Shown here piece after piece: positions 19,120 through 55,475 of a DNA stretch of 64,000 nt (positions are counted from its first letter, which is position 1; each line of letters begins with the position of its first letter). The translations under genes and the position numbers were made by a program. The notes beneath the pieces were generated by a model. That model was not told the origin of the DNA and ran no database searches. It was given only the letters and a program-made list of their open reading frames with translations. Source of the DNA: Senegalimassilia faecalis (GTDB taxonomy: Bacteria > Actinomycetota > Coriobacteriia > Coriobacteriales > Eggerthellaceae); NCBI RefSeq assembly GCF_004135645.1, contig NZ_SDPW01000001.1:2046001-2110000 (forward strand). The letters run 5' to 3'.

Positions 19120-19905
19120 ATGATCGAAGCCTTAAAGAAGAGCCAGCTGCACCGCAATTGGTTCACCATCACTTCCCTTGTTTCAAAAGACTTCAAGCTG
19201 AAATACCGCCGAAGCGTTCTTGGCGTGCTGTGGTCGGTTCTGAACCCGCTGCTGATGATGTGCGTCCTTGCCGCGGTCTTCACGAATGTCCTGAAATTCG
19301 GCGACGTTGCGAACTTCCCCATGTACCTTATCTTGGGAAACGTGTTGTTTACCCTTATGACCGACTCGACGACCGGCGCAATGACGTCGATTCTCGAATC
19401 TGCTCCGCTTATTAAGAAGATTCGCATCGCAAAGCTTATCTTCCCTATCGAAAAAGTGCTATTCCAGCTTGTAAACTTCGCCATCTCGCTTATTGCGGTT
19501 GTTCTGGTTATGGCCTTCTTCCGCATCGCCCCGACGGTGAACCTTTTCGCGTTGCCCCTGCTTCTTATCTATATGCTGCTGTTCTGTAGCGGACTTGGCA
19601 TGCTGCTTTCGGCGCTAGCCGTTTTCTTCCGAGACGTGTGCCACCTGTGGGGCGTCGTAATCACCGCATGGACGTACGCAACCCCTCTGTTCTATCCCGT
19701 TAGCCTATTACCCGATTGGATGCAGCAAGCTGAATTCTTCAACCCCATGTACCACTACGTGACGTATTTCCGCGATATCGCCATGTATAACTGCACGCCT
19801 GACCTGCAGGAAAACCTGATCTGCTTTGGTATGGCGCTTATCACTTTCGCCATCGGCTTGCTTGTATTTAAAAAGTCCGAGAAGAAGTTCATTCTCTACG
19901 TTTAG
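19120..19905 (+). CDS. Polysaccharide ABC exporter permease (ABC-2 type), second system
   Basis: A 261-residue ABC-2 permease with six helices. It has the family's N-terminal cytoplasmic segment (SKDFKLKYRRSVLGVLWSVLNP) and a central FFRDVCHLW motif typical of Wzm/TagG proteins. An AGGAA lies upstream of the ATG. It pairs with the ATPase 12 bp downstream to export a lipid-linked glycan. Sequence and gene order differ from the first exporter (4561-6163), so the locus encodes two separate ABC export systems. The unusual substrate-reading domain of the partner ATPase suggests a distinct polymer. Confidence 0.9.
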   Translation: MIEALKKSQLHRNWFTITSLVSKDFKLKYRRSVLGVLWSVLNPLLMMCVLAAVFTNVLKFGDVANFPMYLILGNVLFTLMTDSTTGAMTSILESAPLIKKIRIAKLIFPIEKVLFQLVNFAISLIAVVLVMAFFRIAPTVNLFALPLLLIYMLLFCSGLGMLLSALAVFFRDVCHLWGVVITAWTYATPLFYPVSLLPDWMQQAEFFNPMYHYVTYFRDIAMYNCTPDLQENLICFGMALITFAIGLLVFKKSEKKFILYV

Positions 19906-19917
19906 GCGGCTTATATC

Positions 19918-21747
19918 ATGACCGAAATCGTAAACACTTCCCCGCTGGCCAGCCACACTGATCAAAGCAGCGTCGTCGACACGCGGCCCGTAATGATTGA
20001 CGTCGACCACGTATCGATGGTGTTTAACATGGCCAGCGAGCAGCTGAACAGCCTGAAAGAATATGCCGTGGCCTTCGCCAAGCGCGAGCTTATGTTCAAG
20101 GAATTTCGAGCCATCGACGACGTATCGTTCACGGTGCGCAAGGGCGACGTGTTCGGCATTCTGGGAACCAATGGCTCCGGAAAGTCGACCATGCTCAAAA
20201 TCATCGCCGGCGTCCTTGAACCCAGCAGCGGCTCCTGCCACGTCAACGGCAATATCGCGCCGCTAATTGAGCTCGGCGCTGGTTTCGACTTCGAGCTGAC
20301 GGCCCGCGAGAACATCTATCTGAACGGCGCGTTGCTGGGCTACTCGCGCAAATTCATCAATCAGCATTTCGATGAGATTGTTGAGTTCGCCGAAATCGAG
20401 AAATTCCTGGACATGCCCATGAAGAATTACTCTTCGGGCATGGTGGCCAGAATAGCCTTCGCCATTGCAACGGTGATTGTTCCTGACGTCCTGATTGTGG
20501 ACGAGGTTCTTTCCGTTGGCGACTTCATGTTCCAGCAAAAATGCGAGCAGCGCATCATGAGCCTCATCAAAGAGCACGATGTGACTGTTTTGATTGTTTC
20601 GCACAACAATGACCAGATCGAGCGCCTTTGCAACAAGGCAATCTGGATCGAAAAGGGCCACGCGCGCATGATGGGATCCGCGTCGGAAGTTTGCGATGCG
20701 TACCGCGCGCTTGGAGGCCATATCGGAAGCGCCGAATCGGAAGCGATTGTGTACGACACGCTTGTTAGCCCGGTGCCCGTTGACGACCAGATCGCTACCA
20801 CCATTGCCGGCGATGACCGCTACGGTACCGCCGTAAAGCTTTCGGCGCTTTGCGAGCGTCCGAGTTCGGATGCGGTTGTCCTATCGGTTGCCGAGCTACC
20901 GTCGATTTGCTTCTCTGCAGCAGCGCTTGCAGCAGCTTATGATGCGCCGCTTCTGCTTATCAAGCCGGACCATATCCCCGACTCCACCATGCAAGAGCTG
21001 CAGCGCCTGAAACCTAGCACCATTATTGTTGCCGGCGTGGCAAGCGAGCGCGAGCAAGGTGTCCTGGCCGAGCTTCAGCAGCACTTCAACGATGCGCACC
21101 TTCAATTCGCACAGGCGACGGAACCGCAAACTGCAGCACTTGATATCTACCGCTCTGCAGAGCCTCAGCAATGGGGTGATTGCGCCATCGTTTCATGGGA
21201 CGGCTGCTTTGGCGACCAAATGTCGCTTTTGCCGTACTCGACGCTGAAGAAGGCGCCATATTTTTATATTGACGAGAACGATCAAATCGACAATGAAACT
21301 TGGGGAGTTCTTACGTCGGGCCATTTTAGTTCGGTTTTGTTTCTTGGAAGCGACCGAACGTTTCCAGACGAAATGCTCACGCGACTTCATAATAGCGGAG
21401 TTATCGGCACACGAATTTGCGAAGACAACGCATCGTTGGCGAACAAACGAATCAATGCGGACTACATAATCCCCACCTTGCAGCAACAGGGAAAGAACGT
21501 TCGTTCGCTTATAGTCTCGTCAACATGGCAGCCATTCAACTCGTTCAACATTGGAGGCTACGCCATCGAGAACGATGCCGCCATGCTGCTTGTAGATTCG
21601 ACCAACCTGGACAGCATGGCTTTCGCTATCCAATACCTCAAAGAGCTTAACGGGGACATCAACCGCTTGGTATTTGTCGGAGACGACAATCAATTCAACC
21701 GAATTGATAAACGGCTGCTCATTAAGGCAGTCCAGCAGGCAAAATAG
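19918..21747 (+). CDS. Polysaccharide ABC exporter ATPase fused to CWB2-like repeats
   Basis: A 609-residue protein. Residues 25-265 are a TagH/Wzt-type ATPase: Walker A GTNGSGKST at 83-91, signature YSSGMVARIAFA at 171-182, Walker B VLIVDEVLSVGD at 191-202. Residues about 290-609 resemble three cell-wall-binding repeat 2 (CWB2) units. The first has AGDDRYGTAVKLSAL at 297-311, then FSAAALAAAYDAPLLLI and KPSTIIVAGVASE, matching the order RYxTA / LaAaxxAPiLL / vyivGG of that family. The later two units are more diverged. CWB2 normally occurs in secreted proteins, where triplets bind anionic wall polymers. Here it follows a cytoplasmic ATPase and there is no signal peptide, so it should face the cytoplasm. 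By analogy with the Wzt C-terminal domain it may bind the polymer to be exported (inference). Confidence 0.85.
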   Translation: MTEIVNTSPLASHTDQSSVVDTRPVMIDVDHVSMVFNMASEQLNSLKEYAVAFAKRELMFKEFRAIDDVSFTVRKGDVFGILGTNGSGKSTMLKIIAGVLEPSSGSCHVNGNIAPLIELGAGFDFELTARENIYLNGALLGYSRKFINQHFDEIVEFAEIEKFLDMPMKNYSSGMVARIAFAIATVIVPDVLIVDEVLSVGDFMFQQKCEQRIMSLIKEHDVTVLIVSHNNDQIERLCNKAIWIEKGHARMMGSASEVCDAYRALGGHIGSAESEAIVYDTLVSPVPVDDQIATTIAGDDRYGTAVKLSALCERPSSDAVVLSVAELPSICFSAAALAAAYDAPLLLIKPDHIPDSTMQELQRLKPSTIIVAGVASEREQGVLAELQQHFNDAHLQFAQATEPQTAALDIYRSAEPQQWGDCAIVSWDGCFGDQMSLLPYSTLKKAPYFYIDENDQIDNETWGVLTSGHFSSVLFLGSDRTFPDEMLTRLHNSGVIGTRICEDNASLANKRINADYIIPTLQQQGKNVRSLIVSSTWQPFNSFNIGGYAIENDAAMLLVDSTNLDSMAFAIQYLKELNGDINRLVFVGDDNQFNRIDKRLLIKAVQQAK

Positions 21748-25562: not shown

Positions 25563-27392
25563 TTACTCCGCTTCCTTCCCCATCCACACGTCGGACAACG
25601 CGCACGGTTCGTAAGGGAACTTGCCCGAACCGCGTAGCGCATCGACCGCATTCGCATACTCAATGGCCGAACGATACCACTTATAGAGCCATTCGCCCAT
25701 AGCGTTGCCCTGCGATTCCTTGTACATTGCCCACACGTACCAGTAAAACCCCACGACCGCCGTGCATGCCAAGCAGTGAAGCACCTCCTGCGCCGTTGCC
25801 GGACGACCGAAGTACAATTCCAGCACTGCAACGGACTCGGCAACGGAGTACCCCGAACCTTGAGCGAAGAAGTTTCCCAGGTCGCAGCCGTAATCGCCCA
25901 TAGCTGCGTACTCCCAATCGATCAGGTGCATGCGATCGGGACCCACCAGCACGTTGGGGCCATAGAAATCGTTATGGCACATCACCGGCGCTGCTCCTTC
26001 GGCGGCAAGGCGCTGCGCAATTCCCGCAATACGCTCGCTCAGCGCATCGAAATCCGCCGGGAACGGATACCATTTGTCACGCAACAGCTTCGTCACATGC
26101 TGCGTTTCCTGAGCGAAATCGAACGACCACGGCGATGTTTCGCCGCTTTCGTGCAAACAACGCACAAGCTCAAGCGCGCCGCGCACGTGCTGCGGATTGC
26201 GGTAATCAAACGAGACGCAGCCGTCAACGTAGCGCGAAATCTTCCAACCCTCATCGGCTTCCGCAAACACATACGTGTCGTCAAGCCCCAAGCGCTTGGC
26301 CAGGCGCAGCGCATATGCTTCGCTTCGGCGGTTCACGATCTCCTCCGTGCCATCACCAGGATGTCGATACACATAGCGAACCCCATGTACGCTGAACAGC
26401 ACCGACAGGTTCGTCAGACCCGCCTTCACCGGCTCGACGTCAACAATGTCTTCGCGCTCGCACGCAAGCGTCCGGCAAATGTTGTCCAGAATGGCGGAGT
26501 CCACGTTCGCCATGAAATCGCGGTCGAACGCGCATAAATCGCTAAGGTAGTCGAACTCGTACACCACGCCTGGCTCGAATTTATCGAGCATCATGGGCGG
26601 CAGCTCGCGCAAATGTTCCGCCAGCAGGTCCTCCCACAGTTTCGGTGCTGTTTCGGGCCGATAGTATTCCCGCCGCAGCACATCAAGAAACGCCTGCGAA
26701 AACGATACATCGAAGTAGGCATAGCCAAGCAGCGTCCACACTCCGGCGCCGCCTTGCTGCACGTGAGTGATCGTTCCGCGCGATGAACATTCGACACAGT
26801 GCTCAGCGGTTTCGCCCTCGGAAAACACCGAAGCATAGCATGCCTGGTATTGGTACGGCTCAAACACGTTGCGAGCATAGTAATTGTCCGACGAGCAGAT
26901 ATAGGTGTTGTGCAGCTTATCGGCCACCTGCATAAGCGTGCCGTTGTTGTTGCGTGTGGCGTATGTGGGGTTCACCACGATGTTCACGCCGAGCGCGTCT
27001 TCCAAGTAGAAGAACGCTTCCTTCATGTAACCAACCACCACGGTGATGTCGGTGATGCCCGCTTCCTTCAGCTGGCGAATCTGGCGCTCGATGAGCACTT
27101 CGCCACGCACCTCAAACAGGCCCTTCGGCTTTTCGTACGAAAGCGGAGCAAAGCGCGCGGAGATACCCGCCGCCATAATGATGGCATTATCGACCTTGTA
27201 TGGCTCCAGCGCGGCATAGCCCTGCGGGGTCAGGCGGAAGCCTTCGGCCAAGCCATCATCGGCGCATAACCGCAAGATGCGATTCGCGGAACCAAGCGAC
27301 ATTCCGGCAGCCGCAGCAAGTTGACGCTGATTGGCAATATCGTGCTGCGCCAGCGCACGGAGCACGTTGAAAACGCTGTGCGATATGTCCAC
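25563..27392 (-). CDS. Fused winged-helix / LicC-like cytidylyltransferase / LicA choline kinase
   Basis: A 609-residue three-domain protein. Residues 1-65 are a winged helix-turn-helix (QRQLAAAAGMSLGSANRILR). Residues 70-300 are a LicC-type nucleotidyltransferase (AIIMAAGISARFAPLSYEKP). Residues 310-600 are a choline/aminoglycoside kinase-like domain with the Brenner motif CHNDFYGPNVLV and LIDWEYAAMGDYGCDLGNFF. Together it could phosphorylate choline and activate it to CDP-choline, while the N-terminal domain controls transcription. The GTG start at 27392 follows AGGAG, which partly sits in a hairpin. No choline transporter (LicB) is seen in the window. Separate LicA and LicC proteins are the usual arrangement. 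Confidence 0.9.
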   Translation of the reverse strand: MDISHSVFNVLRALAQHDIANQRQLAAAAGMSLGSANRILRLCADDGLAEGFRLTPQGYAALEPYKVDNAIIMAAGISARFAPLSYEKPKGLFEVRGEVLIERQIRQLKEAGITDITVVVGYMKEAFFYLEDALGVNIVVNPTYATRNNNGTLMQVADKLHNTYICSSDNYYARNVFEPYQYQACYASVFSEGETAEHCVECSSRGTITHVQQGGAGVWTLLGYAYFDVSFSQAFLDVLRREYYRPETAPKLWEDLLAEHLRELPPMMLDKFEPGVVYEFDYLSDLCAFDRDFMANVDSAILDNICRTLACEREDIVDVEPVKAGLTNLSVLFSVHGVRYVYRHPGDGTEEIVNRRSEAYALRLAKRLGLDDTYVFAEADEGWKISRYVDGCVSFDYRNPQHVRGALELVRCLHESGETSPWSFDFAQETQHVTKLLRDKWYPFPADFDALSERIAGIAQRLAAEGAAPVMCHNDFYGPNVLVGPDRMHLIDWEYAAMGDYGCDLGNFFAQGSGYSVAESVAVLELYFGRPATAQEVLHCLACTAVVGFYWYVWAMYKESQGNAMGEWLYKWYRSAIEYANAVDALRGSGKFPYEPCALSDVWMGKEAE

Positions 27393-27500: not shown

Positions 27501-28343
27501 TTACATGCAATCGCCAAAATCCAACACACTGGGCGCATGATTACGGCGCTGGTTCTCAGGCGGAAGCTCATTCCAAGTCGGACCGTATTGCGTCCGCAAA
27601 TACCCATCAATATCGGCAGGGGCGGAAAAGGTGTACCCCTCAAACTCAATTTCACTCGTCGGAAGCAGCATCTCACGAGGATATGGACTAACAGCAGCGT
27701 ACGAGGATGCCATCATAAACGCCGTATTTGCATCATCGTAAGCCGCCTTCGCTGACGCATCGAACCCCTTGGCAATGCGCGATGGGTTCATAAAGGCTCG
27801 AACCAATACGTGGGCAACGCGGCAACCAAAGCGCTCAACCGACCCAAGCGCTCCAGAATGAGGAACGACAATATGCTTCGAGTGATACAGATACGAAAGG
27901 CTCTGCCACATTATGCAGCGCCGCCGCTGTCGCTTGGCTTTAGCAGAATCCGAGCATACGGCATCGTATGGGAAGATATCTATAAATATACCCTGATCGA
28001 ATCCCGCCTCCTGCGATTCTTCCGTCTCGAAGCGTGTGCCCGTCAACATAACCTTTGCGAAAAGTGCAGCCTGGTGGGGATTATCCTCCGGGCGCGTAAC
28101 GCAATAGCGGTCCCCAAGAGCCTCGGGTGCCACCGCAAGAAAACGCTCGTAGTCGTCTCGAGGCATACCCAAATCAACATCGTCATCCCAAGGGATGAAT
28201 CCACCGTGGCGCCTGGCTCCCAAAATCGTCCCAGAATCCAAAAAATATGCGATACCGTGCTCTCGACACACGCAGTCAATATCCACAAGCATTCCCAGCT
28301 CCGTCAGCTGCAAGCGACGAAGTACTTGTTGGTTGTATTGCAT
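27501..28343 (-). CDS. licD: LicD family phosphocholine transferase
   Basis: A 280-residue LicD protein: AYFLDSGTILGARRHGGFIP followed by WDDDVDLGMPRDDYERFL (metal/phosphate-binding DDD), then IDIFPYDAVCSDSAKAK and a C-terminal YLRTQYGPTWNELPP motif. This is the full-length, typical arrangement of LicD enzymes, which move phosphocholine from CDP-choline to a glycan. It is the first gene of the minus-strand lic set and lies 108 bp upstream of the kinase/cytidylyltransferase fusion, so donor synthesis and transfer are encoded together. The acceptor is unknown. Confidence 0.92.
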   Translation of the reverse strand: MQYNQQVLRRLQLTELGMLVDIDCVCREHGIAYFLDSGTILGARRHGGFIPWDDDVDLGMPRDDYERFLAVAPEALGDRYCVTRPEDNPHQAALFAKVMLTGTRFETEESQEAGFDQGIFIDIFPYDAVCSDSAKAKRQRRRCIMWQSLSYLYHSKHIVVPHSGALGSVERFGCRVAHVLVRAFMNPSRIAKGFDASAKAAYDDANTAFMMASSYAAVSPYPREMLLPTSEIEFEGYTFSAPADIDGYLRTQYGPTWNELPPENQRRNHAPSVLDFGDCM

Positions 28344-28451: not shown

Positions 28452-29336
28452 ATGGCATCTTCTAATGAATTATGCATATTCACGCCAACATATAATCGTG
28501 CATATTGTCTTTCTGACCTGTTTGATAGCCTTTGCCGCCAGACAACAATGCAGTTTGAATGGCTTATTGTGGATGACGGATCGACCGACAACACGCAAGA
28601 ACTCGTAAGTAACTTCCAAGCTAAAGGTCAGTTCCCGATAACCTATATCAAGCAAGCCAACGGAGGAAAGCAGCGCGCCTTCAATACCGGCGTCCAACAT
28701 TGCAAGAGCGAATTGTTCATGTGCGTTGATTCCGATGACACAGTACCCGTTGATATGGTTGCAACGATTTTAAACAAGTGGGGCGAAGTGCACGACGACC
28801 CAACGATTGCCGGCGTAATCGGCATGGACGGAAAAGATGTCGCAACGCCCTTGCAAACAAGTTTTCCAAAAGGTTTGCAATTCACTACGATGTGGGATCT
28901 CTACTACAAACATCATCACAAAGGAGATGTAGCGGTAGCTCACAGGACAGAGATTTTAAAACAGTATCCTTTTGATGTCGCGCCAAACGAGAAGTTTATC
29001 GCCGAGACGTATGTGTTTCATCAAATTGATCAGCATTATAAACTCGCCGTCATTCCAAAAATTCTGATAATTGCGAACTACCGCGCAGATGGCTATTCGG
29101 CAAACGTTAGAAAAGTCACGCGCGAAAACCCAATTGGATATATGAAACTTAAGCGGATGTATATCGAATACGCTGAGACCTGGCGGCTTCGCTTCTATGA
29201 AACTATCCTTTATATGGTAGGGTGTCATTTCGCGCAGCAAAGCGGCGCCATTAGCAATGCACCTTACCGGTTTTTGGCAGCAGCTGCTTGGTTACCAGCG
29301 CAAATACTCTGTCACACTGTATACCGGCCAAAATAA
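28452..29336 (+). CDS. GT2 family glycosyltransferase
   Basis: A 294-residue GT2 enzyme with CIFTPTYNRAYCLSDLFDSL, VDDGSTDNT, AFNTGVQ and MCVDSDDTVPVDM; EKFIAETYVFHQID is the later conserved acidic segment. AAGGAAGG lies eight bases before the ATG. This subfamily often occurs in capsule and LicD-containing loci. It starts a three-gene AT-rich unit with licD and a flippase (28452-31413), which probably arrived together and makes one decorated glycan. Specificity unknown. Confidence 0.88.
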   Translation: MASSNELCIFTPTYNRAYCLSDLFDSLCRQTTMQFEWLIVDDGSTDNTQELVSNFQAKGQFPITYIKQANGGKQRAFNTGVQHCKSELFMCVDSDDTVPVDMVATILNKWGEVHDDPTIAGVIGMDGKDVATPLQTSFPKGLQFTTMWDLYYKHHHKGDVAVAHRTEILKQYPFDVAPNEKFIAETYVFHQIDQHYKLAVIPKILIIANYRADGYSANVRKVTRENPIGYMKLKRMYIEYAETWRLRFYETILYMVGCHFAQQSGAISNAPYRFLAAAAWLPAQILCHTVYRPK

Positions 29337-29339
29337 GAA

Positions 29340-30143
29340 GTGATGAAGATGAAAGAAATCAGCGTCAGCGAACGCAAAAAGTTACAATTAGATATCCTTC
29401 AAAAAATCGATGTTCTATGCCGCGAACAAGGATTTCGATATTACTTAAATTCAGGTACCTTACTTGGCGCAGTGCGCCACAAGGGCTACATTCCTTGGGA
29501 CGATGACATAGATATAACGATGCCTAGACCAGATTATGAAGCGTTCTACCGATTCTTCAAAGAAAACAACACCGACGACGAAATGCAGCTGATTTCGTAT
29601 CGCGACAAAACATCGATATATCCATTCTTCAAAATGGTCAATCCAAAAACAATTGTGATTGAACACTACATTGATCCGAAATATCGCACGGGCGCATGGG
29701 TTGACATCTTTCCTCTTGACGGCGTTAAAAAGAACGACAGCGAACCATTCAAGTTAAACGCAAAAGCCCATGCAAAATATAATGTTGTTGTCGCTAATCC
29801 CAATTACGGAACGACTAAATTAAGAAAACTGGTTAAGCGAATCCTTGTTCCCCTATATCGCAAAAACGATATCTACGAAATCGCACGGAACCTTGATAAC
29901 CAAGTTGCCTCTACACCAATATGCCCTGAAAACGACGTCGCGCTCGTGGTCTGGAGCTACGGAGAACAAGAGCGTATGCCTTACAGCATACTCGAAGCCA
30001 CCGAACTAGAATTCGAGGGGAAAATGTTCCTTGCGCCTCGCGACTGGGATCAGTATTTAACATCCGTATACGGTCAATATATGGAACTTCCTCCTGTCGA
30101 CCAAAGAGAAACCCACTTCTGCACTGCGTATTGGAAAGACTAG
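29340..30143 (+). CDS. LicD family phosphotransferase
   Basis: A 267-residue LicD protein with YYLNSGTLLGAVRHKGYIP, WDDDIDITMPRPDYEAFY and VDIFPLDGVKKNDSEP, ending in VYGQYMELPPVDQRETH. It is the third LicD in the window and is closer to the one at 27501 than to the coiled-coil form at 15436. GTG at 29340 and ATGs at 29343 and 29349 are possible starts; none has a clear ribosome binding site, and the gene starts 3 bp after the GT2 stop, suggesting coupling. The transferred group may be phosphocholine or another phospho-alcohol. Confidence 0.88.
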   Translation: MMKMKEISVSERKKLQLDILQKIDVLCREQGFRYYLNSGTLLGAVRHKGYIPWDDDIDITMPRPDYEAFYRFFKENNTDDEMQLISYRDKTSIYPFFKMVNPKTIVIEHYIDPKYRTGAWVDIFPLDGVKKNDSEPFKLNAKAHAKYNVVVANPNYGTTKLRKLVKRILVPLYRKNDIYEIARNLDNQVASTPICPENDVALVVWSYGEQERMPYSILEATELEFEGKMFLAPRDWDQYLTSVYGQYMELPPVDQRETHFCTAYWKD

Positions 30144-30150
30144 AACAAAA

Positions 30151-31413
30151 ATGGCAGACAATGCGGATAACGGCCTTTCTCTAAAACAAAATATGTTTTG
30201 GAATTCGTTCGGCTCACTTGTATACCTAGGATGCCAGTGGCTCATTACCGTTCTGGTCGTAAGATTGACAAACGGTTACGATGTTGCTGGCATGCTATCT
30301 TTGGCAATGTCCGTTTACAACATGTTCTCGTCTCTTGCGTTGTACCGAATGTACACATATCAAGTTTCGGATGTGAAGCACGAAAACTCTGTTGGCGAAT
30401 ACTTTGCTTTCCGAATCCTCACTTGCAGCATTGCTTTGGCCTGCATAGCTGTCTACTCAATTGCAACCTGCGAACCAGCTGCTCTGCCTGCTATCATTGC
30501 TTATGCTGCATACAAAATCGCAAGCCTGCTCATAGACGTTTTGCATGGCCTTGATCAGCAATTTCGACGAATGGATCTTGTCGGAAAATCCCTCACCATG
30601 CAGGGCGTTGTTTCTCTGCTGATTTTTTGCATTGCGCAAGTACTCACAAGCAATCTCGTTATCACGCTCATTGCAATGACGGTAGCTATTATCGCAATAG
30701 GACTTTTGTACGATTTGCCGCAATCAACGCATTTCGAACCGCTAAAAATCGGAATCAGCCGTAAGAAAGCCTGGCATTTACTAAGCTATTGCTTCCCTAT
30801 CGTGGTTGCCGCTGTCGCTTGCGGAGCGGCCCCATCGCTCCCAAAGCAGATCTTATCGTCAATGGAAGGCACGACCGCTTTAGGAATATACGCTTCTGTT
30901 GCAGCACCAGTGACCATAATTCAAATGGGCGCAAGCTATATTTACAACCCTTTGCTAGGTTACTTTTCCGAAGCGTATGCGAAAAAGGACATGCATCACC
31001 TGTTTCTTCTTCTTGTAAAAGCAAGCCTTGGAATAGCCGCACTCGGAATCGTTGCAGCAGTTGCTCTTGAATTCCTGGGAGAACCGATTTTGACGCTCAT
31101 GTACGGAAGCGGCATCGCGCCGTACACATACCTTCTGATTCCCGCCATTATCTGCTCAATGATTACAGCTTATGTGTGGTTCTTGAACGATGTCCTTGTT
31201 GCACTCCGCAAGTTTCGTGGAAGCTTCATTGGCAATGTATGTGCTGCGGCTCTCTCAGTTCCTGCAGCATTCGCGTTCATACCGCTATTCGGAATGAACG
31301 GCGTCAGCTTTGCGAACATCGTTGCTTACGCAATAAGCGCCCTCATCATGATCATCTCCCTGGTCTCATCGTTTCGTAGCCGCACCCAATGCGCCTCAGA
31401 TGCCCAGGAATAA
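30151..31413 (+). CDS. Polysaccharide flippase (Wzx/PST family)
   Basis: A 420-residue protein with about 12 membrane helices. It matches the oligosaccharide flippase family in length and in the N-terminal layout (SLKQNMFWNSFGSLVYLGCQW, then LTNGYDVAGMLSLAMSVYNM). Such proteins move undecaprenyl-linked repeat units to the outer face for polymerisation or attachment. It lies 7 bp after licD, so decorated units are probably its cargo. No Wzy polymerase is recognised nearby. It is a third, mechanistically different export route beside the two ABC systems. Confidence 0.88.
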   Translation: MADNADNGLSLKQNMFWNSFGSLVYLGCQWLITVLVVRLTNGYDVAGMLSLAMSVYNMFSSLALYRMYTYQVSDVKHENSVGEYFAFRILTCSIALACIAVYSIATCEPAALPAIIAYAAYKIASLLIDVLHGLDQQFRRMDLVGKSLTMQGVVSLLIFCIAQVLTSNLVITLIAMTVAIIAIGLLYDLPQSTHFEPLKIGISRKKAWHLLSYCFPIVVAAVACGAAPSLPKQILSSMEGTTALGIYASVAAPVTIIQMGASYIYNPLLGYFSEAYAKKDMHHLFLLLVKASLGIAALGIVAAVALEFLGEPILTLMYGSGIAPYTYLLIPAIICSMITAYVWFLNDVLVALRKFRGSFIGNVCAAALSVPAAFAFIPLFGMNGVSFANIVAYAISALIMIISLVSSFRSRTQCASDAQE

Positions 31414-31510: not shown

Positions 31511-33152
31511 CTACTCGTTCAACGAAAGGCGTATTTTTAAATCTTTATCCGCATGTAAATCAACGCTATTTCGTGGCTTCAAATCGCAAAAGCCAAATAG
31601 GAGAAACAAAGGAATCGCTAAATGGAGCGCAAACATATATCGAAAATCACTTGCTGGGGCCGCAAGCAGAAAAGTTGCCCACAATATGATGAATGGAATA
31701 CAGAAGATTGCGCCTGAACATCGCTTCTTTATAACGGCAATGAAAAAGCAAAGAACCATAAGCCACGCCAATGATCCAATTGAATACAGATGCGGAAATG
31801 CTAATACGGCCAGATTTAGCGCATCATTCAAAAACGCTTCGCTGACTGGCCAGGAAAAGCCTGAATCAACGCTATCCTGCGTTGCAAAATCGCCAAGCCC
31901 CGAACCAACAACATACCAAGTATGAGACTTTAAACTCCAGTAGTCCTTTGTTTGGTCAATCCACGCTTTAACGTACGTTCCAGGATTGTTGATCCCTACA
32001 CGCACCCAAGCACAAACAAATGATGCTTTGTTACTCTCGAGAAATTCATCGTTAAAATCAGGCGCGAATTTTATATAGTTCGGTGATGAGCTGTCATACA
32101 AACTTCCCCAGCTTTCAAGCGGGAGAATCTGAGCAAGAAATACCTGGTCTTCCTCGGAAATGTCCCCTCCATCGTGAATGGCTTTTCCAATTTGCTGCAA
32201 CGGCACGCCAATTGCTTCCGAAAAATGAGCCGGGACAACATTTGCGAAAGAATAAATCGGGCCGGTAATCACGCAGTACAACAGCGCAACGCAAACGGTC
32301 AATCCACCCAAGTATTTTCTAAAATCACGAGATACCGCAAAAACGAATATCGCCATGGTCGCGATAACGGCAATGAACCCGTTGCTTCGAAGCAGACAGC
32401 AAGCCAACGCTATGAGCAGCACGCCCCCCCCGAAGCAGATGAGCGGCATATTGTTTCGGGTTCACCTTAATATCTACGAGTAGCAAGGCAAAGCAGGCAA
32501 ATAGCCCAGAGAAGACGACATCTTTCCAAACCGTTACAGAATACCAAACCAGCAACGGGTCCCAAAGCAGAAACGCAAAGCACGCGAGAGTGAGCGCTGG
32601 CCGAAGAAAAAGCTCGGACACCTTACGAACAATAAAGCCACAGCACAATGCCAGCACAAACAGATGGGCGAACGCGACAATCGCTGCGCTCGTCGCTTGA
32701 GAGAATCCAAACAACATGCAGGCGTTATATATGATGTAAATAAGGAAAACATACGCAGCAGGATGATGATTGTTGAGAGTATCGTAACGAAAATGATCGG
32801 ATTCGAAAGGCATCCCAGAGACCATTTTCAATATATCGATGCTATCGGTAGAAAAACATCCCGGGTACAAAGGAGCAAGGCCGAGTACCACCCATATCGC
32901 AATGAATGAAACCGCCGCAAATGCAAACAAACGCGTTCCACCATTTCGCGATCGCTCGCATTCGCCAGGCTTAAAGGAGAATCTTGCGAGCAAAGACAAA
33001 ACCACGAATACGAGAACGCCTAGGGGAAACGCGAGCGCGGCGCAAGATACCAAACCACTTCCGTTAGAATACAGAGGAAGCGTCAAAGATAGTGAACATG
33101 CGGCGGAGAAGACAATCCCCAAAAGGCAACCCTTGCTCGAGCCAAATGACAA
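31511..33152 (-). pseudogene. DUF6020-like multi-pass membrane protein, split at a G8 tract (frameshift or phase-variable)
   Basis: Two overlapping frames encode the halves of one membrane protein. The 5' half (start 33152) gives about 10 helices with YPGCFSTDSIDIL, NNHHPAAYVFL and SVTVWKDVVFSG, a pattern I associate with DUF6020/GT-C-like membrane proteins. Its frame leaves register at eight G on the minus strand (C run 32424-32431) and stops at 32325. The 3' half (GGVLLIALACCLLRSNG onward, to 31511) is in the next frame. Seven G instead of eight would join HLLR to GGVLLIALA and give one protein of about 546 residues. No other damage is visible. This could be reversible slippage, a fixed mutation or a sequencing error. 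The intact protein would handle a surface glycan at the membrane (inference). Confidence 0.75.
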
Positions 33153-33482
33153 TATGAGATACGAGGAAATCTGTTCACAGATATTGCTTTTGGAATTAGC
33201 TCCAAAGCATGCTTCGGTTTACCGTTTGTCATCAAATAATACCGAGCCTCTCACTATTGATTGAATGCGATGCAGAAATAATAGGATATCTTAGAAATCC
33301 TATGTCAACAACTTCACAACTTTGGAGAAGAACTCTAGTAGGGCTCGACGCCGTAATCGGAAAGCAACTGCGCGCACAAACGCCAAGTCGTTCCTGAGCC
33401 CCGCATTCCGTCGCTTTTGTTGCGCGTGCCGCCCTTCCGCTTCGCTGGTATATACTGAGCCTCTAGCGAAGAAAGGTTGCGC
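33153..33482. other. Intergenic region upstream of DUF4869 gene
   Basis: 330 bases without a supported gene. It contains TTCACAACTTTGG at 33313-33325, also found upstream of the DUF4143 gene at 39780-39792, and a TATACT at about 33450 that could be the -10 of the DUF4869 gene. Long frames here are on the opposite strand and show no family resemblance. Confidence 0.4.
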
Positions 33483-33935
33483 ATGCTCACGATTCACTAC
33501 GGCGATATGGACGGCGTGGTCTACAACACGTCAGTTTATTTCAACAACGTGTACTCCCCAGAATGGTTCGAGGACCCCTTTGCCCAAAAGGTTATCAAGG
33601 CGGTCGATCGTGGCGTTGTGCTGGGACCGAACGCTATCGAAACGAAAATTCTGGGCGTCATTCCCCCCGAGAAGCTATCAAGCGGAACTAAAACGCTCCT
33701 CCTTATGCATTTCATGCCAGAGCGCGTTTACAACGCCTCGAACTGCGGCGACAACTGTGCGCGATGGATACTGGCAATCGGCAAGGCTCAGGACATCACG
33801 ATCAACCTGTACCATCTTATGAACTTCGGCAATCGCCGCTTCACCATCCACGTGGCGAACACGAGCGAAACCGTGCACACCATGGATGAACTTGTTTTGG
33901 TTGCAGGCAAGTGCCTAAGGGAGGCTGCGCAATGA
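33483..33935 (+). CDS. DUF4869 domain protein
   Basis: A 150-residue protein that resembles the DUF4869 family over its full length: LTIHYGDMDGVVYNTSVYF at the start, PFAQKVIKAVDRGVVLGPN, then CGDNCARWIL near residue 100 and NFGNRRFTIHVANT. Function unknown. AAAGG lies six bases before the ATG at 33483. Its last codons overlap the next gene by the ATGA type of overlap, so the two proteins are made in a fixed ratio and probably work together. I recall this family beside the same type of P-loop protein in Firmicutes; that recollection needs a neighbourhood search. Confidence 0.8.
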   Translation: MLTIHYGDMDGVVYNTSVYFNNVYSPEWFEDPFAQKVIKAVDRGVVLGPNAIETKILGVIPPEKLSSGTKTLLLMHFMPERVYNASNCGDNCARWILAIGKAQDITINLYHLMNFGNRRFTIHVANTSETVHTMDELVLVAGKCLREAAQ

Positions 33936-35098: not shown

Positions 35099-36400
35099 CT
35101 AGCCCCACAGCCCCTTGTTCGCGACGGCGTAGAGCGGGACGTTGCGCATCCAGTCTTGCTGGCGGTAGGGCGAGAGCGAGAAGCGCACGGCGTTCACCTG
35201 CGGATTCGCCTGCTTGAACGCGCGCAAGCTTTTTGCGCGCAGGTTCTCTTCCGCCTTGACCTCCATTGCGTACACCGCCCCCTGGTCTTGCGCAAGGAAG
35301 TCGATCTCCCCCGTCGAGCTCTTGGCCGACCAGTAATAGGGCCCAACGCCGCAATCGGAAATCAGCTGTTGGCACACATACTGCTCCGTTAAGGCCCCTT
35401 TGAATTCGGTGAAGATCCCGCTTCCCTGCACGATGCTTGCGGCATCGACGCCGCTCATGGCGCCAAGCAGCCCGATGTCGAGCAGGAACACCTTGAACGC
35501 CTTGTGGTCGTCATGTGCAGACAGCGGAAGCGCAGGTTTTTTCACCCGGGAAACCGTGCTGATAAGGCCCGCCTGCTGAAGCCAAATGAGCGCATCCTCG
35601 AAATCCTTCGCACGAGCACCTTCGCGAATGTGCCCAAAGACGAACTTCTTGTTTTTGTGCGAGAGGTGCGCCGGAATAGAATGCCACGCATCAAGCGCCT
35701 TCGGGAACAGCCGCATGGGCATGCGCTTGGCGAAATCGCGGGTATAGTCCTCCAGAATTTAATTCTGCAATGCCCTGACCTGGGCGAAATCATCGCTTTC
35801 AACATACTCGTTCACCACTGCAGGCATGCCGCCAACTAAGTAATACGTTTTCAACGCAAGGACTTCGCGCTCGGAGAACGCCGCCATGGTCTGCGTGTCC
35901 TGCGAGTCGAGCAGCAGGCGCAGCGACCGATCGCCCGTCGCGTCAAGATATTCGCGAAAGCTAAGGGGGTGCAAGTTGAGGGTTTCGACCTTGCCGACCG
36001 GATAACCCGAGCCCTCGTGCGCCGACAGGCCCAGCAACGAGCCCGCCGCCGCAACCGCATACGCAGGAAGCTCCTCGCAAAAATACTTCAACGCCGTGAT
36101 TGCGCGCGGGTTGTCTGAATTTCATCGAGAACGATAAGCGTGGAACCCGGCTTGATCTCCTGCCGCGTTGCAAGCGAAAGCCCCCATGAGAACGCGCTGG
36201 GCATCGAAGCCTTCGTCGAAAAGTGCACTTGCCGCCTGATTGGAATCGAGGCTCACGTAGGCAACGTTGTCGAACTCGCGCTTGCCGAATTCCTTCAGCA
36301 ACCACGTTTTCCCAACTTGGCGCGCCCCGTTGAGGATAAGCGGCTTTCTGTTAGCCTTGCTCTTCCAAGCAACAAGCTGCTCCATCAAATAGCGCTCCAT
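35099..36400 (-). pseudogene. Decayed AAA+DUF4143 ATPase gene
   Basis: Three pieces of one ATPase are in different states. From ATG 36400: MERYLMEQLVAWKSK, then Walker A NGARQVGKTWLLKEF. The frame shifts near 36190 (five G where four restore GLSLATRQEIKPGS) and again near 36115 (EIQ needs one more G to reach DNPRAITALKYF). After ALQN there is an in-frame TAA at 35761, followed by ILEDYTRDFAKRMPM and the DUF4143 C-terminal nuclease-like part (STGEIDFLAQDQGAVYAMEVKAEE). Three lesions make this a dead gene rather than an error. Intact members have about 430-450 residues, are common in gut bacteria, and have no settled function. Confidence 0.88.
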
Positions 36401-36638: not shown

Positions 36639-37919
36639 TTAGGCGGTTAGACACGTTATGGGAACCACGAACACGCCATCGTTGCGTCGCATCGCGTAAC
36701 CACCCGGCGTCAAAACCGCGCAAAATGCAGGCTCGCCCATAACCGTCGTGTCAATCTTCTCCTTCAGCGCAAGCAGGCTTTTTGCGCCGTCATCAGCGAA
36801 CGCCGACCCGAGTTTCGCCTCGAACAGGGCGTAGCGGCCATCTCTCAGCTGAACCACCGCATCCGCCTCGCGGCCCGATTCGTCATGGTAATGAAACACT
36901 TCTCCACCGAGAACCTGCGCATACACGCGTAAATCCCTTACGCACAGCGATTCGAACAGAAGCCCCATCGTCGACGTATCCATAAGCAGCGCCCTCGGCC
37001 CAATGCCAAGTGCAGCCGCGGCGATGGAGGGGCACGTAAAATGTCGCGTCGGCGTCTTCGTTATGCGGGATCTGGCATGCAGCGAAGGCGTCCAGGCCGA
37101 AAGCTCTTGAATGACGTATAGCCTTCTCAATGCCGCAAGGTACCCGTTTACCGTGTCTCGCGATAAGTCGATATCGCGGTTCTTCAAGTCTTTGTTGATG
37201 GATGCCTGAGTTGCCTGCGACGAAACCACGCGAGCGTACTCCTGCATGATCAAGCGGGCATATTGTGGATTTCGGCTCACCCCATCAGCACGAGAAATAT
37301 CCTGCTCCGCGATGGTGGTCAGGTAGTCGCGAGCAAGCTCAAGCGAGTCTTCCTTATCGGGCAAAGTCACCGCACGAGGCCAGCCGCCACGGCATATGAG
37401 GTACGCCATCTCTTCAACATCGCATTCGGAATACCCCGAGCAGTCGGTTTCACCGTTAAACAGCGCCGCCAGCGACACCTCGGCGGTAGAGTCCCTCGAT
37501 TCCGCAAGGCTCATAGGGCTCATATCGACCGATGCAATTCGGCCAGCGCCAGAATGCGAAGGCGCCGAGGCGGGGGTTGCAGATCCCGTCAGCAAAAAGC
37601 GTCCCGGCTCATCGCATTCGTCGACAGCAAACCGGACAGCATCCCAAAGCTGCGGCGCATCCTGCCACTCGTCGATAAGATGCGGAGCTGCACCTTCAAG
37701 CAGCACCGAGGGCTTCGTGTTTGCAAGCAGCAGATAATCTTGCCGCTTATCGGGATCTTGCATCATCGTCCAACTTGATGCGTGCTGCAATGCAGACTGG
37801 GTTTTACCGCACCATTTCGGTCCCCTGACCTCAACAGCGCCGATATACCCCAGCTTTCGCTCAATAAGCCTATCAACAAAGCGAGGAAGATACCGATTTG
37901 AATTCAATTTCGCACTCAT
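36639..37919 (-). CDS. AAA+DUF4143 ATPase
   Basis: A 426-residue ATPase: Walker A EVRGPKWCGKTQSALQ near residue 35, a Walker B-like PHLIDEWQDAPQLWDAV, sensor region FLLTGSATP, and a DUF4143 domain ending in a PD-(D/E)XK-like core (SGREADAVVQLRDGRYALFEAKLG). The ATG at 37919 with AAGGA upstream is chosen; a longer frame runs into promoter repeats. It belongs to a different subfamily from the proteins at 38291 and 54273. The promoter overlaps four 23-bp direct repeats, so expression is probably tightly controlled. Role unknown; transcription control or defence have been suggested for such ATPases. Confidence 0.88.
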   Translation of the reverse strand: MSAKLNSNRYLPRFVDRLIERKLGYIGAVEVRGPKWCGKTQSALQHASSWTMMQDPDKRQDYLLLANTKPSVLLEGAAPHLIDEWQDAPQLWDAVRFAVDECDEPGRFLLTGSATPASAPSHSGAGRIASVDMSPMSLAESRDSTAEVSLAALFNGETDCSGYSECDVEEMAYLICRGGWPRAVTLPDKEDSLELARDYLTTIAEQDISRADGVSRNPQYARLIMQEYARVVSSQATQASINKDLKNRDIDLSRDTVNGYLAALRRLYVIQELSAWTPSLHARSRITKTPTRHFTCPSIAAAALGIGPRALLMDTSTMGLLFESLCVRDLRVYAQVLGGEVFHYHDESGREADAVVQLRDGRYALFEAKLGSAFADDGAKSLLALKEKIDTTVMGEPAFCAVLTPGGYAMRRNDGVFVVPITCLTA

Positions 37920-37944
37920 AGCAGGGTCCTTCCTGCGAAAACAA

Positions 37945-38021
37945 CCGATTGCAAAGATTATAACCAACCAATTGCGAGGTTTTCAACCAACCGATTGCGA
38001 AATTTTTGACCAACCGATTGC
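37945..38021 (-). repeat. Four 23-bp direct repeats across the DUF4143 promoter
   Basis: The core CCGATTGC (once CCAATTGC) occurs at 37945, 37968, 37991 and 38014, exactly 23 bp apart, within a longer unit AACCAACCGATTGCGAAA. On the minus strand a promoter-like TTGAAA (37981-37986) and TATAAT (37957-37962) with an 18-bp spacer sit inside the array. This suggests tandem operator sites. The 23-bp period does not keep a reading frame, so the repeat is not protein-coding. Confidence 0.75.
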
Positions 38022-38290: not shown

Positions 38291-39724
38291 TTACCAGGTT
38301 GGCGGATCAACGCGCAGTGAGGTTCTTGCTTCACTGGGCCGCTCAAAAGCGCCAACGTCAGCATTGAGCCGCTTGGTCAGGCTGCTGATCGAGTAAAGGG
38401 GCAGATACGACACGACTTTCCCGCACTTCTCCTTTTCTCGAGCAGCGAATTCGGAAAGCACTACTGCCTCGGAAATACCGAATTCATCTGCGGAAAGCAG
38501 ATTGTTTAAGGCGCTATGAATCTTGTAATCCTTGCCGGACTTCACTTCAATCGGCAGCACCTGAGCCTCGTTGGTCTCAACGACGAAATCAACCTCACCG
38601 CGCCGGTTGTTGTGGTAGTAGCGCAGCTTAACACCTGCCGCCGCAAGCTCCTGAGCGACGAAGTTTTCGTAAACCGCGCCGAAATTCACGCTTTTGGCAC
38701 CGGCAAGAACATCAGCGGCCACCTCGATGGGATTGCGGGACATAAGCATCCCGCAATCATGCGCATACAGCTTGAAGCGCGAGGACTCTTCAGTGCGTGC
38801 AAGCATGAACTTAGGCTCCGTAACGTTAACCGCCTTAAGCGCAGTCTTCGCGCCGACAAGCCATGCGAAATCGTTCGCAAACCGTTCATAACGCGCCTGC
38901 TTTCGTAACGAGTTCAACTGAAAGCGCTTGTTTTCCTTGGCAAGCTGCTGCGGAATCTCATCGTAGATAGCCTTGACCTGCAGCGACCTTCCGTTCGCAT
39001 ATTTGGCAATGTCTTTCCGATACAAACGGACAAGGTCATTAAGAACCTCACGAACAGCACTTAAATCGTGCGAGGAATCGAGGTATGTTTGCACGGCCTC
39101 AGGCATACCGCCGATTACAAGGTACAGGCGGAACAGGTCGATAAGCTTCCCGTGGACTTCGTCAGAAATCGCACCCGGACCGCCGTTGCCAACGCCGGCC
39201 GAGTCAAGCACCATTTGAGGAACGTTTTGCGCCCAGCAGAATTCCTCAAACGTCAGAGGGTACATATGGAGGATGGTCATATACCCAACGGGAAACGACT
39301 TCACTTCCGTCAGCTCGACGCCAAGCATCGAGCCAGACATGACAACATCGAATCTGCCGTCTTCGAGCAGGTACTTCGAAATGGTCACGATGTTCTGCGC
39401 CTTTTGCACTTCGTCGAAAAACAGCAGCGTCTTCCTATCGCCAAGCGGTTTGCCAGAAATAAGGGAAACCATCTCGACAACCTGACGAGCGTCTTGCGCT
39501 TTACCAAGAAGCTCGACCGCGCGGGCATCGTTAAGGAAGTCGATTTTGATGTAACTGGCGTATTCGTTGCGCGCAAATTCCTCGATGAGGAACGTTTTAC
39601 CGATCTGACGTGCGCCGTCGACCAGCAGCACCTTTCTTTTTGCAGCCGCCTTCCACCGCAGCAAAGCATCATAGGCCATTCGTTTTAGCAATGCAATCCA
39701 ATCTCTTGGCACTAACACAACCAT
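38291..39724 (-). CDS. AAA+DUF4143 ATPase
   Basis: A 477-residue ATPase. Walker A DGARQIGKTFLIEEF is near residue 36, with TLLFFDEVQKAQNIVTISKY (Walker B) near 95 and VVMSGSMLGVELTEVKSFPVG. The middle has FEEFCWAQNVPQ and LVIGGMPEAVQTYLD. The DUF4143 C-terminal part has NFGAVYENFVAQELAAAG and a nuclease-like RRGEVDFVVETNEAQVLPIEVKSGK. The decayed gene at 54273 belongs to the same subfamily. The start is taken at 39724; an ATG at 39679 is possible and neither has a strong ribosome binding site. The upstream AT-rich region contains two copies of a TTGTGA-AT motif. Confidence 0.88.
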   Translation of the reverse strand: MVVLVPRDWIALLKRMAYDALLRWKAAAKRKVLLVDGARQIGKTFLIEEFARNEYASYIKIDFLNDARAVELLGKAQDARQVVEMVSLISGKPLGDRKTLLFFDEVQKAQNIVTISKYLLEDGRFDVVMSGSMLGVELTEVKSFPVGYMTILHMYPLTFEEFCWAQNVPQMVLDSAGVGNGGPGAISDEVHGKLIDLFRLYLVIGGMPEAVQTYLDSSHDLSAVREVLNDLVRLYRKDIAKYANGRSLQVKAIYDEIPQQLAKENKRFQLNSLRKQARYERFANDFAWLVGAKTALKAVNVTEPKFMLARTEESSRFKLYAHDCGMLMSRNPIEVAADVLAGAKSVNFGAVYENFVAQELAAAGVKLRYYHNNRRGEVDFVVETNEAQVLPIEVKSGKDYKIHSALNNLLSADEFGISEAVVLSEFAAREKEKCGKVVSYLPLYSISSLTKRLNADVGAFERPSEARTSLRVDPPTW

Positions 39725-40031: not shown

Positions 40032-43000
40032 CTAGCTATGCGAAATGCCGCTGGTGTTGATCTTCGACAGCGTGTAGGTGATGTAATCTGAATTCGGATA
40101 TCCCGAGTTCAGGGCTATGTTCACTGGCGTGTCGATCACGCTGCCGCTAGCGTCCAGTAGCTCGGCCGACAGTACCAGGCGATAGTTCGCATATGTGAAG
40201 TTGTTGTCCTCAACATCCGTATTAACCTTGACTGTGAACGGGAACTGAAACATCTTCGCGCTCTTCTGAGTAGCAAACGCATTGTTAGCCTTCTGATCAA
40301 TGAAGACGAAAGCGTCCTTGGTGCCCATCGGCGTCAAAGTCCCTTCTCCAAGCGGGCTTTCGATAACTGAGAAGTGGCTTTTAACAGACTCGTCCTCATA
40401 CGTCCCATCCGTCCCCGTACGCTTTTGCAACTTCAACATGTAGCGCACCGAAGTTGCCTCGCCAATCCTGTCATCAGCATCAATCATGGCGGACAAATCA
40501 TACGTTCCATATGCGGCAATGGTACCGTTGGCCAACGCCAAATCGTTCACGTTGATACCCAGCTGCGATTGCATGCTCGCCGACAACTCGATCGTGGAAT
40601 CACCGTTTTCCTCGCGATAGTAACCAACGGTACCTGGGATGTTTGCGGTGATGCTCGACGTTTCCAACGTGCTTTCGCTTACAGCCAAACTAGACTGGAA
40701 ACGTATCCTCGTGAAAGCCGAAGGCACCTGCTGCTGGTTCAACTGACCCGCTGCAATACCGGATAAACAAGCCATCTCGCTCATCTGGATCGAGTCGATT
40801 TTCACTTGAACAGTAAATGCTGCATCCTCAGTGTCTGCAGCGGTAGCCACGCTCGCCGCGACAGAACGGATGCCCGACAAGTCGTAGGGCAGCTGCAACT
40901 TCATCTCACCGCCATCGGACGACCAGGGAACTGATGCTCCGGCATCCGTTTTCGTAGACCCTACGCTTTTCCATCCGCTACCATCCCAAGTGTAGTATTC
41001 GTCGCCCACCTTCACATAAAAGTGCGCGGTTCCACTCACACCAGTCGGCCAGCCGCCAGCGCTTGTCAAGCTGCCATCTTTTCCGTACTGCCCCAACGAA
41101 CTGCTGAGCTGAAAGTACAGCTTGTCATTGGGGTTGTATTGCTGATTCCTGTTGAAGGTTACCGTGTCGGTAACGTCAAGAGGTAATCGATACCCAACCC
41201 CATCTTCGTTTTTGCAGGTACCCATCTCCGCGTATGCTCCCGAAACGTTGTCGCTCAGCTTTTGCCCATAGTTCGTATAGATGCTATATGTTGAAGCCGT
41301 GTTGGAATGGCTATCGGCGTCGAGAAGCTTCTCAGCATTGCGAGGACGAAGCGTCGCGTTCACGCGGCTGTTCACATTCGTGTCGATGCTGGAATATGTG
41401 TAACCGTTCACTGCCGCCTTCGTACCCGCTGGCACGGTGATGACAAGGTAGAAGTTTTCGCTAGGCGAAATCTCCATGCCCTTGTTCTCGCCCTCGGCAA
41501 CAGTAGCAACCTTGAGGGTGTACCTTGTGGCCGTATCAGATTCATTAGTAACGCGATAATACTTTACATCATCGCCCGAGCCGATCTTGGCTCCCGGATT
41601 ATCATCCTTCGAGCACTCGACCCATACGCCGTTGTTGTCTTCCAACGCCGTTACGCCCATCGTTTGGCTGAACCAAGGCTCTTCATAGCGAGACTTCCCA
41701 TCGACCGCGGCAACGAAGTCCGTGAGCTTGACCGACGTGGCCCCGCTTTGAGGAACCGTGTAATAGTACTCCTTGTCGTTGTCCGCCGTGTCGACCAACG
41801 TCAGTTGCGTACCAGCCGGCAAGGTTGGAGTCTTTCCGCTAAACAGGATCGACTTGTTCAGCGGGCCCATAGAACCACCGCTGGCAAGGTGCGTGTCCCA
41901 ACCATATTCCGTTGCGGATCCGTTTGCCTCGTTGTACGTCCAGGTGAGATAACCGGCCATCGACTCGCCGGAGCTGCTCAGCACGTGGCTGTTTTCGCCT
42001 AGCGTGCTGTAATCATCGGGATTGAACTTCGTGCCGTACGCATAGCTGGCAGTGAAGTCAATCTCGAGCATGCGCTTCACGATGATGGGCACCTGTACCT
42101 TGTACTTCTGCCCCGTCTCGGAGAAGGTGACGGTCAGCAACGTAAAACGATGCCTCTCGTTATCCCAGCTCGTAGAAGCACGGAACCCCATTGAAGTGGT
42201 GCCATCACCCACGACATACAACGATGCCGCATCGGCCGAACGCACAAACGATCCATCCGACTGCAATTCGAACATCTCGGCCTTCGCCGTCACATGAGGG
42301 CCGCCGGCGTCGTTATTGAGACGCACAGCGTCGGAAAAGCCACCGTTCGTCACAAGGTTAAGATAGTTCGCGACGGTCGTCGTGTCGTTGCCCGAAATCA
42401 ACAGGATGGGGAAATCGTCAGCAACTTGCGGAAACTTTCCGGTGCCTTCTGAAGACACCGTATTGTTCTTGTTGTAAGTGCTCGCAGCAGTTCCGGCACT
42501 GTAGCTGTTTGTGTTGTTGTATTGACCATCATCGGTGATTCCCCCGATATTGGTATAGGTGTAGCGACCAGGCTGGGGAAACCTTGCTTGCTCTTTGATT
42601 GTAGCCGCCGTGTCGATTGCGGCACCGTCACCGAACAGGTATTTTGGATCCCCACCCGAGGCATCCTTAACCGATAACTTGTTTTCCGGGTTGGTCGTGA
42701 CATACGGACTCACCGACTTCACGGTAGCCATGGAACCGTCAGCATTGTCATCATCGTTGTACAACCTGTTACCAGGGACAGCCTTGGGCTCATCTTTGTA
42801 ATCGGCAAAAGCGATGTAGGACTTCTTGTTGATTGCAGCCTTTTGGCTATCCTGACGGTAGTGCATGATTCCTGGATTATCGCTATTCGTCGCTCCGGTT
42901 TTCAGCTTGATTGCCAAACCCGCAACAGCGAAACGAGTCAAATCGCTATCAGCGACATCACCGAGCAAAAGCCCTTGGTGCGTTTTGTCTTCGAAGGCGT

Positions 43001-50855: not shown

Positions 50856-50889
50856 GTTTACCTCATTCCATATGCACCGCAATCGCGGG

Positions 50890-54272: not shown

Positions 54273-55475
54273 CTATTCGGGCCACACAATGGGCGGCAGC
54301 TCGATTTCATTCAGCAACTTCACCGATGACTCGCCCGACGACCCTTCTGCCGCCACGAACCCAGCCATATACAGCGGCAAATACGTTAACCGCTTTCCGC
54401 ACCTCGTTTGTAACGACACGTTCGCTTCGGTCAGCACCACCGCTTCCGAGATGCCGAATTCGCTGGTCCCCAAAAGGGTGTTCAGCGCCGTGTGAAGCTT
54501 ATAGTCCTTGCCGGACTTCACCTCGATAGGCAAAATTCCGCCCGTTGCCTTTTCCATCAGAAAATCCACTTCGCCACGCTTGCTATGGTGATAGTAGTAC
54601 AGCTCAACGCCCGCCGCAGCCAGCTCTTGCGCGACAAAGTTCTCGTACACCGCGCCGAAATTCACCGACCGCTCCCCCATAAGCGCCGACATCGCCGTCT
54701 GAGCAGGGTATTGAGCAACAAGCATTCCCACATCGGAGCTATAAAGCTTGAACCGATTGACCTCGGCGGTGCGAGCCAACATGGGCCGAGGGTCGGAAAC
54801 ATTGTCGACTTTCAGCGCAGCGCGGGCGGCGGTCAGCCATGCGAAATCGTTCGCGAAACGATTGTACTTCGCCTCTTTCGCCACCGCCTTGAGTTGAAAC
54901 CGTTTGTTCTCCTTGCTAAGCTGAGCGGGTATCTCTTGAAAATCGCCTTGACCTGCGGCGACCGCGTTCCCGCATATTTTGCGATGTCTTCGCGATATAG
55001 CCTAGCCAAATCCGTCTGAACTTCGCGGACCGCGCCTAAATCGCGCTTGCCAGTGATACTTTTCTGCACTGCTGCCGGCATTCCGCCGATCACGAGATAC
55101 CGGCGAAACAGCTGAATGAGCGCATCATGAACCGGTGCATCAACCGGAATCTTCTCTTCATAGCACGTGCGAACTTGGCTCAAAATCGTATCGGGAACGC
55201 CCTGTGCCCAGCAAAACTCCTCAAACGAAAGCGGAAACATGTCCAAAATGCGCAGATATCCGACCGGCATGGAGCGTATCCACCGCAGCTTCGATCCCAA
55301 CATAGACCCCGACAAAACCACATCGAAGCGCCCATCTTGCACAAGGTACTTCGACAGCGCAACCACTTCAGGGGCCATTTGCACTTCATCGAAAAAAAAT
55401 CAACGTGGAATCGGGCCGCAAAGCCTGACCTAGTTCGAGCGAAAGCAAATCGACAACCTGATCGGCGTTTTTTGC
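54273..55475 (-). pseudogene. Decayed AAA+DUF4143 ATPase gene, 5'-truncated
   Basis: It belongs to the same subfamily as the 38291 protein (VLSGSMLG, FEEFCWAQGVPD, NFGAVYENFVAQELAAAG, VDFLMEKATGGILPIEVKSGK). The part before FSAKNADQVVDLLSLELG, including Walker A, is missing. The frame breaks at a run of eight A/T near 55392-55399 (seven restore LIFFDEVQMAPEVV) and near 54950, where one missing base turns IFQEIPAQLSKEN into KRYPLSLARRT. Beyond that, the C-terminus to 54273 is intact. Two frameshifts and a lost 5' end show it is no longer functional. It is flanked by repeat copies A and B. Confidence 0.85.

Follow-up and report, generated by a model that had tools for sequence, protein, structure and literature searches.

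A run of eight guanines sits at the point where a gene for a membrane protein of the DUF6020 family (PF19484) changes its reading frame, and we asked whether this gene is a switch turned on and off by slippage, a gene broken once and now decaying, or an intact gene that was wrongly assembled. A slipped-strand contingency locus, seen in its OFF state, is in our view the probable explanation. The analysis started from a window of 64 kb (contig 1, bases 2046001-2110000) in a genome of 2.75 Mb that is assembled into two contigs; this genome is designated G000, and in what follows L-numbers denote loci and G-numbers genomes of the comparison set.

The split DUF6020 gene and its surroundings

A sequence-only reading of this DNA had claimed that an eight-G tract at 32424-32431 splits a membrane protein, and direct inspection of the sequence placed a run of eight C on the plus strand, thus G8 on the minus strand on which the gene lies, at exactly these positions. 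The entire gene occupies 31511..33152 (minus strand). Its N-terminal ORF (32325..33152, minus strand; 275 aa, TTG start) matches PF19484 with an E value of 4.8e-06, and its C-terminal ORF, here named P0001 (31511..32449, minus strand; 312 aa), with an E value of 1.6e-17. The C-terminal half scores 63.5 bits, above the curated cut-off of 28.3, and the N-terminal half alone scores 25.6 bits, slightly below it. Against a profile built from 91 relatives, the N-terminal half corresponds to positions 48-263 and the C-terminal half to positions 274-550, so that the two span positions 48-550 and the frame shift is narrowed to a 28-nt interval containing the G8 run. The two frames are one base apart, and the final ~30 aa of the N-terminal ORF are an out-of-frame reading past the run. 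Neither half, compared with the family profile, showed a further gap or stop outside this interval, which bears out the earlier statement of two frames with no other lesion over 1.6 kb. Since both halves match the family in this way, the whole protein cannot be made from the gene as assembled.

According to a census of runs, the C8 at 32424-32431 is the sole G/C run of at least 7 in the window. Base-composition shuffles of the window gave a mean of 3.62 G7 matches, and at least two, the observed number, in 84 of 100 shuffles. By composition, 64 kb would often contain a run of such length, and what is unusual is its position; as the length of the G8 run is expected from base composition, our argument is built on its placement and on the relatives of the gene, not on its length.

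The beginning of the gene was also inspected. The first half starts with a TTG at 33152 that has no clear Shine-Dalgarno sequence, an alternative TTG ~20 nt downstream is preceded by AAGGG, and an ATG ORF lies upstream in a different frame, so that by our own reading the choice of start codon is ambiguous. A second lesion at the N-terminus, as the upstream ATG ORF in the other frame might indicate, is not needed to explain the data, since the profile match begins normally in the first half. No sigma-70-like promoter pair was found before the gene.

Judging by the encoded domains, the surroundings of the DUF6020 gene are a surface polysaccharide region. It comprises genes for a polysaccharide flippase-like protein (30151..31413, plus strand; a weak Polysacc_synt match, under the cut-off), a LicD family protein (29340..30143, plus strand; PF04991, E 4.6e-43), a family 2 glycosyltransferase (28452..29336, plus strand; PF00535), a second LicD family protein (27501..28343, minus strand; PF04991, E 1.2e-42), a nucleotidyltransferase and choline-kinase-like protein (25563..27392, minus strand; PF12804, PF01636 and PF01633), and an ABC-2 permease of polysaccharide-export type with its ATPase (19120..21747, plus strand; PF01061 and PF00005). 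The two PF04991 genes confirm the licD adjacency claimed earlier, and together with the adjacent PF01633/PF12804 protein they form the gene arrangement of a putative LicD-linked phosphocholine decoration. The ATPase of the ABC exporter (19918-21747) matches CW_binding_2 (cell wall binding 2) in its C-terminal part. On the other side of the DUF6020 gene lies a divergent DUF4869 gene (33477..33935, plus strand; Pfam match), and by eye a DUF4869-like remnant also adjoins the relative L032. Judged from its neighbours only, DUF6020 is probably a membrane enzyme that acts on cell-surface glycans; a likeness to GT-C glycosyltransferases was searched for in PDB sequences and in other Pfam families, with no meaningful match.

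The window also holds four AAA_14/DUF4143 ATPases, two of which are split without any long homopolymer (35099-36091 and 54273-55384), which indicates that ordinary pseudogenes are present in the window as well. The other two copies, at 36639-37967 and 38291-39724, are intact. A very large, secreted-looking protein of 3639 aa is encoded at 40032-50951, and its gene carries no G/C run of at least 7.

Homopolymeric runs in DUF6020 relatives and control genes

Within the host's bacterial family, 58 of 138 genomes carry PF19484, and a match to P0001 was obtained in 25 of 100 relatives. For the survey, 100 stretches yielded 104 gene models, from which nine were removed as duplicates, giving 95 distinct DUF6020 genes; six short partial PF19484 matches were left out as separate loci. 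A G/C run of at least 7, within the gene or immediately upstream, was found in 8 of the 95 genes, all of these runs being 8-10 long and none in the survey being exactly 7. Seven are coding runs. By profile comparison five are out of frame (the window G8, C8 in L032, G9 in L034, C9 in L051 and C9 in L112) and two are in frame (G10 in L056 and G9 in L053). In L034, a good Shine-Dalgarno sequence and an ATG run directly into the G9, the frame ends a few codons on and the remainder of the gene continues in another frame after the run. The eighth run, a C9, lies ~50 nt before the ATG of L055; no sigma-70-like promoter pair was found around it, so that a role as promoter spacer is unsupported.

The ON and OFF registers are thus both found among the relatives, across species and not as alleles of one gene. 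Five out-of-frame and two in-frame runs of 8-10 are the pattern expected of a freely running slippage switch, and the occurrence of such runs in and out of frame in related genes suggests a reversible on/off switch. In a tree of 93 rows, made from C-terminal pieces only, the run-bearing genes are scattered, with sisters that have no run, and both the sites and the base (G or C) differ. Runs at differing sites, of G or C, on scattered branches point to separate origins.

A run at the exact site of the window G8 is absent from all relatives in the survey. The nearest relatives are only 39-43% identical and the comparison set includes no same-genus orthologue; L033, L037 and L038, which belong to these nearest relatives, have no run, and the run of L032 is at a different place. 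We read L033 as a plain deletion pseudogene. The frame of L032 is broken a second time, at a C4 run, so this copy may be inactivated or misassembled. Relatives without a homopolymer at this place were named in the sequence-only reading as a finding that would refute switching, and taken literally this is what we see at the window's site. A search for near relatives of the gene in genome contigs gave 47 pattern matches, none of which was confirmed, scans with exact flanks found no other run-length allele in genome contigs or viral contigs, and a plasmid search for alleles of the window run likewise returned none.

Two families, MurJ and the MATE transporters, served as controls. The MurJ set, from a family with matches in 135 of 138 genomes, consisted of 70 genes, of which 30 were those with the highest scores and 40 came from genomes that carry DUF6020. 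In this large membrane protein no gene of the 70 carried a run of at least 8; two runs of exactly 7 were present and none of the genes was broken. Among the 30 best-scoring MATE transporters, none had a run of at least 8 in its open frame, and in one gene a run of 9 immediately precedes the frame. Coding runs of at least 8 thus occur in 7 of 95 DUF6020 genes vs none of 100 controls (Fisher p 0.006), or 6 of 94 vs none of 100 when the window gene is excluded (Fisher p 0.012), in a DUF6020 sample that is uneven, as 6 of the 7 tract genes outside the window come from the loci most like P0001 and 1 from the rest. The contrast is weaker with upstream runs included, at 8 of 95 vs 1 of 100 (p 0.014), and at 7 of 94 vs 1 of 100 when the window gene is then excluded (p 0.026).

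We also counted runs in the neighbourhoods of these genes. The DUF6020 neighbourhoods (435,978 bases, overlaps kept) hold 3 runs of 7 and 10 runs of 8-10, the MurJ neighbourhoods (258,159 bases) 4 runs of 7 and none longer, and the MATE neighbourhoods (100,941 bases) 2 runs of 7 and one of 9. Among the ten long runs near DUF6020, two more fall in glycan or membrane genes. In G007 a family 2 glycosyltransferase gene (L043, 542-1310) is split by a G10 (864-873) beside an intact DUF6020 gene, and in L140 a long run lies within a membrane protein gene near DUF6020. A G10 in L113 (3812-3821) precedes a gene with a signal peptide, near a DUF6020 gene.

Poly-G runs across the same genome

Exact run lengths in G000, derived from 70 and 38 overlapping matches, are 11 runs of seven, 9 of eight, 7 of nine and 5 of ten, with none longer. 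This makes 21 runs of at least 8, vs 2-5 expected from geometric decay starting at the 11 runs of seven. Their placement was inspected in 18 stretches, covering 20 runs, and in the window.

Three of the 21 runs interrupt the ORF of a surface or membrane protein, namely the runs of the window gene, L064 and L074. In L064 (G000:C1:777700-783700) a G10 at 3005-3014 stands just past a signal peptide and is followed, in the other frame, by a 1294-aa fragment of a large surface protein (L249, 10942-14826). The arrangement in L074 (G000:C1:1724900-1730900) is of the same kind, with a G8 at 3053-3060 just past a signal peptide and a 1606-aa fragment of a large surface protein in the other frame (L250, 1038-5858). 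The two large proteins have no Pfam domain above cut-off, and by eye the C-termini in L249 and L250 are similar.

Most of the remaining runs are intergenic or at gene ends, as we read them from the ORF lists. Poly-G/C runs lie ~90-100 nt before genes for a LytTR response regulator (L076), a Tat-type oxidoreductase (L068) and a TetR-like regulator (L072), the last two named by eye. Two LuxR-type regulators and a GGDEF/HD protein (L065, L066 and L067) have runs of 9-10 C or G at their very C-terminal ends, where the effect of the runs, if any, would be on the protein tail only.

Proposed slippage switching, its alternatives and known systems

Contingency loci are recognized by a homopolymer of about 8 or more within a reading frame or promoter and by a one-base change of register that joins or splits an otherwise intact gene. 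Both are present in the window gene; conservation of the run at the same site in orthologues, a supporting feature that is not strictly defining, is not. As a contingency locus, the gene would work as follows. Slippage in replication would lengthen or shorten the G8 run by one G. There would be a register in which the halves join into one DUF6020 membrane protein of ~545 aa, and in the assembled register translation would leave the frame at the run and stop ~100 nt further on, so that the C-terminal half would be missing. Switching would vary the cell surface, if DUF6020 acts on surface glycans. Changes in the length of this run within living populations, selection for switching and a role of the protein in glycans are all inferred.

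Given that relatives lack a run at the same site, the gene could also be a one-off pseudogene, that is, an accessory gene broken by a single slippage at a chance G run and now decaying without switching back. The deletion in L033, the second lesion in L032, the two other broken accessory genes in the window and the ordinary frequency of runs of 7-8 G in 64 kb all speak for such decay. However, the gene has kept 1.6 kb free of any other lesion, in its family runs of 8-10 occur both in and out of frame whereas runs of 7 are absent, and G000 combines an excess of runs of 8-10 with two other split surface genes, which makes this explanation unlikely in our judgement, if a serious one.

Homopolymers are a common site of sequencing and assembly errors, and the true run might have another length in a gene that is intact and constant; L032 has two frame breaks associated with homopolymers, such as an error-prone assembly might yield. 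A codon-model scan of ~179 kb of G000 found 16 same-strand frame changes, 15 of which are ordinary gene boundaries, the remaining one lying inside an ORF of L078, at a distance of ~100 nt from the G8 of that locus. As the model assigned just 44% of the window to coding sequence and missed the split genes, the check is a partial one, which argues against many errors without being proof. Out-of-frame runs are also found in assemblies of very different make, of 2 (G041), 250 (G037) and 420 (G055) contigs, and we regard an error as distinctly improbable. A run of eight G could be slippery for polymerases as well, and with frames one base apart, slipping of RNA polymerase or the ribosome might yield some full protein with no change in the DNA. 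Slippage of DNA accounts better for the runs that are in frame and for the absence of a fixed site among the relatives, and we give slippery expression hardly any credence.

Among these readings, a slippage switch is the one that we retain. The phase variation proposed earlier is partly supported, by runs in both registers among the relatives, by the excess of runs in G000, by the two further split surface genes and by the LicD neighbours; against it, our searches found no allele of other length, and no relative carries a homopolymer at the position of the G8. We are evenly divided on a broader proposal, in which slippage switching would have come to act on DUF6020 proteins repeatedly within the family, with independent runs at several sites in six genera (seven with L055), and G000 would carry a phasome of 21 runs, among them runs in a glycan gene, in the genes of two large surface proteins and upstream of several regulators.

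Surface glycans and proteins are where bacteria meet phages and hosts. A slippage switch, if true, would make clonal populations mixed in their surface make-up, would mislead annotation, as switchable genes are dismissed as pseudogenes, and would offer a testable tie between surface variation and DUF6020, to which no role has been assigned. Searches of the available literature found nothing on DUF6020, including a tested function, and nothing on slippage switching under Eggerthella, Coriobacteri- or Gordonibacter. The mechanism is already known, and as far as searched DUF6020 is new as a gene family on which it acts.

Campylobacter and Neisseria have poly-G contingency loci, with G/C runs of at least 7 in surface genes. 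The runs described here are alike in this respect, and the host phyla and gene families are unrelated. In a survey of frame transitions across complete genomes, some of the gene clusters were assigned to phase variation; a term search of its text gave no mention of Eggerthella, Slackia or Coriobacteri- (PMC3711429). In Bifidobacterium breve UCC2003, replication slippage at a poly-G run switches sortase-dependent pili, with length changes followed by deep sequencing (PMC9187656). The DUF6020 gene resembles this system in its intragenic G run, its ON/OFF frame, its presumed surface function and an actinobacterial gut commensal as host; it differs in that lengths were measured there, whereas here single assemblies were compared, in DUF6020 genes with runs at differing sites (PMC9187656). 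In Gardnerella spp. the per-genome median for G/C runs of at least 8 is 20, with many of the runs upstream of genes or associated with surface proteins (PMC11287997). The 21 runs of G000 are close to this median; variation between colonies was demonstrated in Gardnerella, whereas G000 is known from one assembly (PMC11287997).

In Eggerthella lenta the capsule is switched through megabase inversions, and the available part of that paper names slipped-strand mispairing just in general terms (PMC13174815). If the host family is Eggerthellaceae, as we guess from the gene content, a slippage phasome would stand beside this known inversion switch and would be undescribed there, as far as searched. 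The two cases would be alike as phase variation of a surface polysaccharide, perhaps within a single bacterial family, and they differ in mechanism, an inversion being described in E. lenta and slippage being proposed for the DUF6020 gene (PMC13174815).
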